Below are positions 1,733 through 6,197 of a stretch of 49,962 nucleotides of DNA, one piece after another; the first letter of the stretch is position 1, and the number at the start of each line of letters is the position of its first letter. Origin of the DNA: a virus; the IMG/VR virus record IMGVR_UViG_3300005613_003096, positions 1 to 49,962 of that record. One strand, written 5' to 3'. The translations under genes and the position numbers were made by a program. The notes below the pieces were generated by a model. The model was not told where the DNA came from, did not search any database, and worked only from the letters and a program-made list of their open reading frames with translations.

Positions 1733-2195
1733 AAAGAAAAGAATAGATGAAAAGATATCGAATGCTCTTGACATTCCCGTTGCTAGCGGTGAAATAATCG
1801 ACTATGAAACAGAAGAAAAGCATCTAGTCGAACCGATAAATACTGATCTCGATGTAGACTATCAGAGCGTTCGTCAAAACCTTCAGGACATCATTGATCG
1901 TGGAAAAATTGCAATCGATGGTATTCTTACCGTTGCAGAAGACACAGACAGTCCCAGAGCATATGAAGTTGCTGCTCAGATGATAAAAAATGTTGCGGAT
2001 GTCAATAAGGATCTTATCGATATTCACAACAAACTGCGAGCAATAAAGTCTTCATATGAAGGTCCAAAGACAGTTACAACAAACAACACTCTGTTCGTCG
2101 GTTCAACAAAGGAACTGCAAAAGTTTCTGAAACAACAACAGGAAATGCTATTAGATTCTGAAAAAGGTGAAGAGGATGCCGTTCAAGACGAATGA
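1725..2195 (+). CDS. gp16: Terminase small subunit gp16
   Basis: Small terminase subunit, which recognises concatemeric DNA and regulates the gp17 packaging motor. The frame is open from 1683, but a GGAG ribosome site at 1715-1718 lies six bases before a TTG at 1725. That gives a 156-residue protein starting [18 protein letters not shown], close to T4 gp16 in size (164). The middle is a predicted coiled coil ([18 protein letters not shown]...[19 protein letters not shown]), as expected for the oligomerising helical hairpin of gp16. It overlaps gene 15 by 8 bases and gene 17 by 20 bases. Assignment rests on synteny, size and the helical core. Confidence 0.82.
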
Positions 2196-4074
2196 CCAGT
2201 ATCGTGATAATCCGCTGCTAAAGAAAGCGGGTATCGAGTTTGAGTTTACAAAAGAGCAGTTGGAAGAATATGTGAAGTGTTCCAACGATCCCATGCATTT
2301 CACCAAAAACTATGTGAAGATCGTTACGCTTGATGAAGGTTTAGCACCGTTCGAGCCGTACGAGTATCAGAACAAGATCATTCGTACCGTACACGAAAAC
2401 AGATTCGTCATCTGTAAAATGCCGAGACAGTCGGGAAAAGCACTTTCTTTGGACACTCGCATTCCAACCAAACAAGGCTGGAAAACAATGGGTTCCCTGC
2501 GAGTGGGTGATCGTATTTTGTCGCCAAATGGAAATGAATGTACCGTTACATTTAAAACAGAAACAATGTTCAATCATGTATGTTATCAAATACACTTTGA
2601 CAACGGTGATTCGATAACCGCAGACGCAGATCATCTATGGAATGTAAATTCATCATTCTGGAGAACAGGCACAAAAACAATCACCACACAAGAAATTTTT
2701 AATGCGTATCAAACAAAGAAAAAAACCGTCCGTGGCAATTCTTACACAGGACCATTTTTTATTGATATGTCGGAACCACAGCAATTTGAAGATAAAATTC
2801 TTCCGATTGATCCATACCTTCTGGGTATATGGTTAGGCGATGGATATAAAGGAGACGGAAGAATTATCGCACACAAAGACGATTTTGAACATTATAATTC
2901 AAGAGTTAATGTTGGACATACACGCGAAGAAAACAATTGTATTGTATTTCGTGTGGAAGACCTATACAAAAAACTACGAGAAAATTCGTTATTGAAAAAC
3001 AAACACATACCTGAAATTTACTTAAGAGCATCCATAGAACAACGTCTGCAACTTCTTCGTGGGTTAATGGACACCGACGGCTCGGTAAAACCAAATAGTC
3101 GATCGTTTGAATTCTATCAAAAAGATTTTGACATGATCGTTTCTGTAAGAGAGTTGTTATCAACACTAGGAATCAAATCAAGAATAAGAAGAAAATTGAT
3201 TAAAGATTGTTATTATCATACTCTTTCCTTTTCGACTGATCGGTTTACCGTGTTTTCTCTCCCCAGAAAAAACGAAAAAGTTGAACAATCGACACCAACA
3301 CGACCAAACGAAAAAAGACTGTATATCACAAACATACAAAAAACAGAAAGCGTTCCCGTATGCTGTATACAGGTAGATTCACCAGATTCTTTGTTCTTGT
3401 GTGGTGAAACATTTATTCCGACACATAATACCACAACCATTGTTTCATACCTTCTTCACTATGTTCTATTCAATCCCGACATGAATGTTGCGATTCTCGC
3501 AAACAAACAAAGCACCGCGATAGAAATTTTACACCGGTTTAAAACAGCGTATGAAAACCTACCAAAGTGGCTACAGCAAGGTGTGTTCTCATGGAATAAG
3601 GGAAGCATCGAATTAGAAAACGGTTCACGAATTCTTGCGGCATCGACATCTTCATCCGCAGTCCGTGGTAGTTCATTCAACCTCATCTTCATCGATGAGT
3701 TTGCATTTATTCCTCATGAAATTGCAGAAGAGTTTTTCGCGTCGGTGTATCCCACTATCTCGTCTGGCTCAGAAACAAAGGTACTTTTGGTAAGCACACC
3801 AAAAGGGCTGAACATGTTTTACAAGTTCTGGACAGACGCGGTAAACAAGCGAAATCTTTATATTCCAATCGAGGTTCGATGGCAAGATGTACCTGGCAGA
3901 GACGAAAAGTGGAAACAGGAAACCATTGCAAACACCAGTCAAGAACAATTTAATCAGGAGTTTGAGAGTTTATCATCCAAAACCAAAATTATTATAAATA
4001 ATCAGGAAACAACTCTCGGAGAACTATATGACGACCTATATTCATCAAACCCCACCGAAAAATATCCTGATTGA
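2176..4074 (+). CDS. gp17: Terminase large subunit gp17, N-terminal fragment, with a cis intein and an N-intein half
   Basis: ATPase half of the DNA-packaging motor, made as a precursor. Extein 1 (88 residues) ends at the Walker A motif MPRQSGK. A 330-residue intein follows, then extein 2 (179 residues) resumes with TTT, completing the P-loop, and contains Walker B ([12 protein letters not shown]) and the coupling motif VSTPKG. After QFNQEFE the frame enters a second intein N-half (SLSSKTK..., 35 residues) and stops. The rest of gp17, the nuclease domain, is encoded separately from 4980. ATG 2176 is preferred over GTG 2167 because AAAAGG lies 8 bases upstream. Mature spliced gp17 would be about 563 residues, in the family range (T4: 610). 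Confidence 0.93.
2440..3429 (+). mobile_element. Cis-splicing intein in the gp17 Walker A motif; class 3-like with LAGLIDADG endonuclease
   Basis: A 330-residue intein lies between Lys and Thr of the P-loop (QSGK^TTT). It starts with Ala instead of Cys/Ser ([14 protein letters not shown]), has a Hint block B with ITADADHLW (Trp at residue 67), a block F Cys ([10 protein letters not shown], residues 308-309) and ends THN followed by Thr. Ala1 plus this Trp/Cys/Thr trio is the signature of class 3 inteins, which use the block F Cys as the first nucleophile. Two LAGLIDADG-type motifs are visible, LLGIWLGDG (from residue 128) and [10 protein letters not shown] (from residue 205), each keeping an acidic residue, so the homing endonuclease may be active. 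The frame is uninterrupted. Splicing itself is inferred. Confidence 0.93.
3967..4071 (+). mobile_element. N-half of an atypically split intein in gp17 (35 residues, Ser1)
   Basis: After extein residues NQEFE the protein reads [20 protein letters not shown] and ends 15 residues later at the TGA 4072-4074. This is a Hint block A (x-L-x-x-x-T-K-I) followed by the usual x-L-x-x-L-Y segment, then a stop long before block B. Block B is found instead in the partner at 4980. A cut this close to the N-terminus is the atypical split position known from some phage terminase inteins; conventional split inteins have about 100 residues in the N-half. The first residue is Ser, while the residue after the C-half is Cys. 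Confidence 0.88.
3993..4000 (+). promoter_or_regulatory. T4-type late promoter box inside intein N-half coding sequence
   Basis: The octamer TATAAATA is identical to the T4 late -10 consensus. It is read as Ile-Asn codons of the intein N-half. It sits 28 bases before the ATG of the Vsr-like endonuclease gene, the right distance to give a short leader carrying the GGAG at 4018-4021. Promoter function is inferred from the match and position. Confidence 0.55.
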
Positions 4075-5002: not shown

Positions 5003-5306
5003 AAATTTCAAAGTATTAACTCCGTCTGGTAATCAATCTTTTTCTCACATACAAAAATTTAAGAGAAAAGGATACATACACTTTCAGTTCGACGATAATA
5101 CCGAACTAAAGGTATCACCCAAACATCCATTTATCGTTAACGGTGTAAAAAAGTTGGCGTGCGATATGTCAACCGATGATGTTATCGACGGAAAAAGAAA
5201 AAATATTTTTCACATCGAGTTTGTGGACGAAGATATCGAATTATACGATCTATTGAATGTGGAAAATGGCAATCTATACTACACCAATGATCTTGTATCG
5301 CATAAC
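4980..5306 (+). mobile_element. C-half of the atypically split gp17 intein (109 residues, ends SHN before Cys+1)
   Basis: This part contains everything a Hint domain has after its first beta strands. There is a block B-like LKVSPKHPFIVNG (S-x-x-H), a CDMSTDDVIDG turn, block F (ELYDLLNVENGNLYYTNDL) and block G (VSHN) directly before Cys of the C-extein. Together with the 35-residue N-half it makes a complete roughly 144-residue mini-intein without an internal endonuclease. The Ser1 and Cys+1 nucleophile pair is unusual. Penultimate His and terminal Asn are intact, so the C-terminal cleavage chemistry is expected to work. Confidence 0.88.
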
Positions 5307-6197
5307 TGTGACTTCCTACAATCTACGGGAACTCTCATTGACGGTGAAAGATTACGATTGCTTACTTATTCTAGACCAAAAATTTCAAACACGAACGGGT
5401 TTAAAATTTACGAAGAACCCATCGAAGATCACAAATACATGTTGGTGTGCGATGTGTCTAGAGGTGTTGGAAAAGACTTCCATGCGTTTTCTGTTCTTGA
5501 CATAACCAAACCACCATACAAACAGGTTGCTACCTTCAGAAACAACGAACTGTCACCTCTTGTTTTGCCAAGTGCAATCTATCCTGTGCTTCGTCAATAC
5601 AACAATGCTTTTGCTCTGATTGAAGTCAACGATATTGGCGCACAAGTAGCAGACATTCTCAAACATGATATGGAGTATCCCAATATTCTTGGTACATCAT
5701 ATCGTGGTAGAAAAGGTCAAGTTCTTGGAGAGGGGTTCGGAAATGAAGCACAAAACGCAAATGGTATTCGTACTACTACTCCGATCAAAAGAATCGGATG
5801 TTCACTTCTTAAATCACTGATTGTCGAAAATAAATTAATCATCGAGGACTATTGGACCATCGATGAACTTACAACATTTGTTGCTACCAAAGAATCATAT
5901 GAAGCAGAAAAAGGACATCACGACGATTTAGTAATGACTCTTGTGTTGTTTTCTTGGGCTACAAGCCAAGAGTATTTCAAAGAACTGTTGGACACTGACA
6001 TACGAAAAGCGATTTACGAGAATTCTTTAGACAAAATCGAAGAGGAAATGACTCCTTTTGGGTTTATTGAGTACGGAGATTCTGTTGAAGACACCTTCGT
6101 GGACGAATCAGGAACACTTTGGACAGTGGACAATGATCCGTCTCGTCAGTGGTGGAATCTCGATCAAGACAACCGGGGATCCTCTGGATGGTATTGA
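4980..6197 (+). CDS. gp17: Split-intein C-half fused to terminase large subunit gp17 C-terminal (nuclease) domain
   Basis: Residues 1-109 are the intein C-half and residues 110-405 are the gp17 C-extein starting CDFLQSTGTLIDG. The extein carries the RNase H-fold headful nuclease: an acidic residue in MLVCDVSRGVGKDFHAF, another in FALIEVNDIGAQ, and HHDDLVMTLVLFSW. These match the three catalytic acids of T4 gp17 (D401, E458, D542). It has no ATPase domain of its own, so it can only work after trans-splicing, or non-covalent assembly, with the product of the 2176 gene. The start ATG overlaps the endonuclease gene by 23 bases and has only a weak upstream GAG site. Confidence 0.92.
   Translation: MTVIPNHKNFKVLTPSGNQSFSHIQKFKRKGYIHFQFDDNTELKVSPKHPFIVNGVKKLACDMSTDDVIDGKRKNIFHIEFVDEDIELYDLLNVENGNLYYTNDLVSHNCDFLQSTGTLIDGERLRLLTYSRPKISNTNGFKIYEEPIEDHKYMLVCDVSRGVGKDFHAFSVLDITKPPYKQVATFRNNELSPLVLPSAIYPVLRQYNNAFALIEVNDIGAQVADILKHDMEYPNILGTSYRGRKGQVLGEGFGNEAQNANGIRTTTPIKRIGCSLLKSLIVENKLIIEDYWTIDELTTFVATKESYEAEKGHHDDLVMTLVLFSWATSQEYFKELLDTDIRKAIYENSLDKIEEEMTPFGFIEYGDSVEDTFVDESGTLWTVDNDPSRQWWNLDQDNRGSSGWY

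Follow-up and report, generated by a model that had tools for sequence, protein, structure and literature searches.

Fractured genes, in which the two halves of a split intein enclose a free-standing endonuclease gene, were reportedly described by Dassa et al. in NAR in 2009, mainly from phages. The GOS TerL intein is said, going by the title of a 2015 paper by Bachmann and Mootz (JBC 290:28792), to combine Ser1 with Cys+1. Among atypically split inteins, the S2 split site has been assigned to both AceL TerL and GOS TerL; N-terminal intein parts (IntN) of up to 37 aa are given, AceL being cysteine-dependent with a 25-aa IntN, and the study of the paired Ser and Cys nucleophiles is cited for GOS TerL (PMC13014065). 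The Ser1/Cys+1 intein of the literature is therefore GOS TerL and not a VidaL intein. A fractured gene with a GIY-YIG endonuclease gene between the intein halves is also known for the AceL NrdHF split intein (PMC7891396). Moreover, P-loop insertion between Lys and Thr is a known intein site, as in mycobacteriophage TerL inteins (PMC5050341).

We analysed an IMG/VR virus record of 49,962 bases (the window), a metagenome contig fragment that comes from a marine T4-like phage; its major capsid protein is 57% identical to that of Methylophilales phage Melnitz and 55% to that of Pelagibacter phage HTVC008M. Translation placed the large terminase, gp17, in two ORFs on the + strand, as are all features described below for this locus: an N-half at 2176-4074 (632 aa) and a C-half at 4980-6197 (405 aa). 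Between them lies a third ORF, 4028-5002 (324 aa), which shares 47 nt with the N-half and 23 nt with the C-half. By Pfam, the N-half contains Terminase_6N and LAGLIDADG_3, the C-half Terminase_6C, and the middle ORF DUF559 and MTES_1575, and the locus thus has a conserved enzyme gene, a split intein and a free-standing endonuclease gene in the gap, as in fractured genes.

The N-extein consists of two parts, of which the first (2176-2439, 88 aa) ends in Walker A, as MPRQSGK, and aligns with gp17 of cyanophage S-SSM7, while the second (3430-3966, 179 aa; Terminase_6N, 3.3e-21) carries Walker B and ends in FNQEFE. It is directly followed by an IntN of 35 aa with Ser1 (3967-4074, stop codon included), which has the same length and Ser1 in the IMG/VR contigs L005, L006 and L007. 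The C-terminal part of the intein (IntC; 4980-5306, 109 aa, blocks B, F and G) ends in LVSHN, after which the C-extein begins with CDFLQ (5307-6197 including the stop codon, 296 aa), with Cys+1 and an RNaseH-like nuclease domain (Terminase_6C, 2.6e-10). Excision of both inteins gives a gp17 of 563 aa with no alignment gap at either junction against the intein-free S-SSM7 gp17, and the joined exteins carry the ATPase and nuclease domains of T4-type gp17. The first-pass annotation had described a two-gene gp17 with a 35-residue IntN (Ser1) and a 109-residue IntC (Cys+1), block B in the C-half, and a 324-residue ORF with an E-F-D-x3-W-H core overlapping both halves, and translation bore out each of these elements at the coordinates given here, with block B as ELKVSPKHPFI and the core as EFDGSKWH. 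Its inventory of the gp17 parts was right for the split intein, but incomplete, as a second intein in the N-half (2440-3429) was overlooked.

The intein is split just behind its first helix segment, at the S2 site, and the block B His is residue 49 of IntC. As in the atypically split TerL family, the IntN is short (about 15-37 aa in the family), block B lies in IntC and IntC is homologous; Ser1 together with Cys+1 is the combination of the GOS type. IntC matched 6DSL_B in phmmer (E = 1.3e-21) with 52% identity to CatC, from the atypically split consensus intein in PDB 6DSL. When IntC was folded alone with AlphaFold2, from 29 natural sequences, the model (pLDDT 77) had 6DSL as its rank 1 Foldseek match in PDB (E 3.7e-7, TM 0.70), while IntN alone gave no meaningful match against PDB. 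The split intein therefore belongs to the known AceL/GOS-TerL/Cat type, with 6DSL nearest both by sequence and by fold, and this comparison, which the first-pass annotation had suggested, agrees with its reading of an atypically split gp17 intein with a Vsr-like endonuclease gene, as do the conserved intein end residues and the relatives with an intein at this site.

With GOS TerL, to which it is likened by description rather than by sequence, the intein shares the terminase host, the S2 split, Ser1/Cys+1 and an IntN of about the same length (the published 37-aa IntN is presumably that of GOS TerL); here, the gene is complete and is seen with its endonuclease, its neighbours and a second intein. 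AceL TerL and Cat (6DSL) have the same host gene and split site and, for CatC, the IntC identity given above, but AceL differs in its cysteine dependence and its shorter, 25-aa IntN (PMC13014065). The AceL NrdHF intein resembles the gp17 split intein in its fractured gene and differs in being class 3, in its canonical split site and in its host protein (PMC7891396). Finally, fractured genes with Vsr-like homing endonucleases likewise combine an enzyme gene that a split intein interrupts and a free-standing endonuclease gene between the intein halves, whereas in our phage the host is gp17, the split is atypical, the endonuclease gene overlaps both halves and a class 3 intein lies upstream. Another split intein, of the canonical kind, was observed elsewhere in the window in the UvsW helicase (16145-17158 and 17169-18113; TIGR01445 and TIGR01443 matches), with an IntN of about 97 aa, Cys1 and Cys+1; its ORFs are only 10 bases apart with no endonuclease gene, and Salmonella phage S16 and Proteus phage PM2 have related inteins in their UvsW.

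The second gp17 intein is contiguous (330 aa, N-half residues 89-418; LAGLIDADG_3, 1.7e-10) and is inserted between the lysine and the threonine of Walker A (QSGK/TTT), so that its removal restores QSGKTTT. Its key residues, read by eye, are Ala1, the W of DADHLW, the C of VPVCCIQVD, the T of FIPTHN and Thr+1. We assign it to class 3 by this signature, because Ala1 is accompanied by W, C and T at the three positions of the class 3 triplet (PMC7891396). The same intein was found in L012, L018, L048, L049, L066 and L120, with Ala, Met or Ser at position 1; across the related phages this residue is Ala, Met, Ser or Gln, as expected if this position is not the nucleophile. Matches that span the entire N-half, this intein included, were found to the gp17 of Synechococcus phage B23 (58%) and of several Escherichia and Klebsiella phages (35-39%). 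Mycobacteriophage TerL inteins and class 3 inteins share with it the Lys/Thr P-loop insertion, the WCT triplet and LAGLIDADG, but here the host is a T4-type gp17 which also holds a split intein. As the N-half contains this contiguous intein, the N-extein is made up of 88 and 179 residues, and gp17 needs to be spliced twice, once in cis and once in trans.

The gene in the gap is preceded by GGAG (4018-4021), likely its ribosome-binding site, which lies within IntN and is conserved in L005, L006 and L007; in L006 and L007 the start codon is TTG. The encoded protein has a DUF559/PD-(D/E)XK-type core with Vsr-like EFDG..WH (PF04480, DUF559: 1.1e-6, 28.9 bits against a cut-off of 20.6); a match to PF18741 falls below its own cut-off, and in Pfam the Vsr family itself gave no match. 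It is probably a homing endonuclease, with an HTH-like N-terminus. A structure model built from 4 sequences (pLDDT 56) was too poor for a fold search. A related endonuclease ORF was also seen in Nitratidesulfovibrio phage SRB7757 (L004:1122-5660), between the parts of a DNA polymerase B split at GDTDS, the C part of which has a seemingly extra block-B-like stretch. Elsewhere in the window, a free-standing endonuclease-VII/HNH-like ORF (20574-21050; by eye, Pfam returning nothing useful) sits between a gp47-like gene and the gene that precedes a gp46-like one, and a 650-aa ORF with long collagen-like GPTGPTG repeats (39499-41451) is a probable tail fibre.

Scans of IMG/VR followed by a common analysis yielded 92 non-redundant loci in which an intein occupies this gp17 position; the scans started from seeds in both groups, and the set is not a census. 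Fifty-six loci have Cys1, and in 46 of these the gap holds a GIY-YIG endonuclease gene (Pfam match in L065); the rest comprise one with an HNH gene (L029, by Pfam), 4 with no gap gene, 2 with a contiguous intein, 2 with another or unclassified gap, and Vibrio phage Va1, in which a single ORF encodes a Vsr-like endonuclease, IntC and gp17-C as a fusion. Ser1 was found in 34 loci, 21 with a Vsr-like endonuclease, 12 with none, one with another gap and none with GIY-YIG, and at this site the Ser1/Cys+1 pair is thus not very rare, contrary to the first-pass annotation. The inferred position 1 of the remaining 2 (V and N) may be misaligned. In the IntC tree, which lacks position 1, 41 Cys1 rows form one supported group (100/98), with the Ser1 rows elsewhere. 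The tree speaks against a single origin of Ser1, since its supported branches require 3 changes or more, although the number of Ser/Cys switches is not firm because only about 110 columns underlie the tree and its branches are long. Two Cys1 rows, L251 and L274, are nested among Ser1 rows; these are possible natural nucleophile switches, with Cys+1 kept. The tree and the gap genes together make Ser1/Cys+1 a lineage trait linked to the Vsr-like endonuclease, and the pairing of nucleophile with endonuclease reflects two lineages, not many independent pairings. Among cultured phages, the in-frame endonuclease-IntC-gp17-C fusion of Va1 (L003:3089-6506), split at the same gp17 site, is a possible intermediate. 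The terminase C-halves of Campylobacter phages F367 (L091:1485-2813) and CP21 (L090:4501-4809) begin with a related IntC, which extends the split terminase intein to cultured Campylobacter phages.

The 12 Ser1 and 4 Cys1 loci that keep the split with no endonuclease gene indicate that the endonuclease is dispensable for splicing. L031 keeps the split, but an internal deletion has removed its GIY-YIG gene except for the final bases, and L025 has a near-identical intein that is contiguous; we infer that L025 went from split to cis, but the reverse could hold. L038 and L039 resemble the HNH-bearing L029 minus the segment between ATATTATAA-like repeats (by eye; the aligner set the tail differently). 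In L081 (2770-6203), L148 (1180-5853) and L202 (2-2849), gp17 is divided into three pieces by two different, successive atypically split inteins, so that the middle ORF has one IntC at its start and the IntN of the other intein at its end. Their second split intein lies at Walker A, with Cys1 (GK/CF.. or GK/CC..) and a Vsr-like endonuclease ORF, and L148 has yet a third intein in its middle piece, contiguous and of the LAGLIDADG kind. L206, L251 and L102 likewise show a split intein at Walker A.

For transfer of the cassette, L005 and L006, from the Ser1 clade of our phage, were the informative pair. Their amino-acid identity is 89% in IntN, 90% in the endonuclease and 93% in IntC, as against 74% in the N-extein, 54% in the C-extein and 50% in gp18. 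At the upstream junction, nucleotide identity is 90% over the first 60 bases inside and 72% over the 60 before, and at the downstream junction 88% over the last 60 bases inside and 58% over the 60 after. Synonymous divergence is 0.34 in the endonuclease and 0.57 in IntC and is saturated in both exteins; the dN/dS of 0.14 (endonuclease) and 0.07 (IntC) indicates purifying selection. This step in identity is the footprint that en-bloc copying of a cassette from one diverged phage to another would be expected to leave. No near-identical phages with and without the cassette were found, hence a single homing event was not seen, and since our phage is only 68-73% identical to L005/L006, and thus old relative to both, its own transfer is not dated.

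We consider it very probable that the locus as a whole is a fractured gp17 in which excision of the cis-intein, trans-splicing to a ligated gp17 and Vsr-like homing of the cassette are combined. Both splicing reactions, their order and the endonuclease cleavage are deduced from sequence as follows. The first ORF would give gp17-N with the class 3 cis-intein, the self-excision of which would restore QSGK-TTT, and with the 35-aa IntN at its end, while the second would give the 109-aa IntC fused to gp17-C. IntN and IntC would associate into one Hint fold, Ser1 would attack the Glu-Ser bond (N-to-O shift), the N-extein would pass to Cys+1 as a branched thioester, and cyclisation of IntC Asn109 would leave gp17 ligated at FNQEFE-CDFLQ. 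The Vsr-like homing endonuclease would cut intein-free gp17 alleles, upon which IntN, endonuclease and IntC would be copied into them together.

The window is a metagenome contig fragment and a sequencing or assembly error could have broken one continuous gp17 intein frame, yet the layout, both stop positions and the overlaps are identical in the independent contigs L005 and L006 (and in L007, near-identical to L006), and the endonuclease is a conserved 324-codon ORF in another frame. As these contigs share the layout and IntC matches a solved atypically split intein, chance or such an error is excluded for practical purposes. There is precedent for halves that function as separate polypeptides, since a phage ribonucleotide reductase gene that a homing endonuclease gene interrupts is reported to work as two peptides (PMC10448857); we regard this as very improbable for gp17, in which the intein catalytic residues are conserved across about 90 loci, IntC is under the selection described above and, with no splicing, 330 residues would interrupt Walker A.

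Less improbable, though still unlikely, is that the endonuclease no longer homes and is simply carried along in the gap, or has become regulatory, as could be suspected from its absence in the relatives that keep the split, but its low dN/dS and the drop in identity on both sides of the cassette, at the intein junctions, argue against this. Ala1 is also found in inteins other than class 3, and the Walker A intein could be a variant of class 1 or class 2 that has this residue; we give this little weight, as W, C and T occupy the class 3 positions and relatives have Ala, Met or Gln at position 1. Fractured gp17 with a class 3 cis-intein and a mobile split-intein cassette remains our preferred reading.

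The layout of this gp17 and its intein type are already known, from fractured genes and from AceL TerL and GOS TerL, and the first-pass annotation had likewise pointed to related cases in metagenomic phages. What appears to be new is the coupling of Ser1 with Vsr-like and of Cys1 with GIY-YIG endonucleases and its extent, the sharp transfer footprint, the pair of a class 3 and a split intein within a single gp17, and the three-piece relatives. The Ser1/Cys+1 pair, once called unprecedented, gains a natural and complete context, and about thirty further Ser1 split inteins with a short IntN could serve protein semisynthesis. The three-piece gp17 genes are naturally co-existing split intein pairs whose orthogonality is measurable, and the near-identical inteins with an endonuclease gene, without it and in cis form make the split-intein life cycle testable. 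We think it likely that, at this one residue of T4-type gp17, two lineages of atypically split inteins evolved different first nucleophiles, each with its own endonuclease family, with Ser/Cys switching within the Ser1 lineage, repeated loss of the endonuclease and, in some phages, a gp17 assembled from three polypeptides by two independent trans-splicings.
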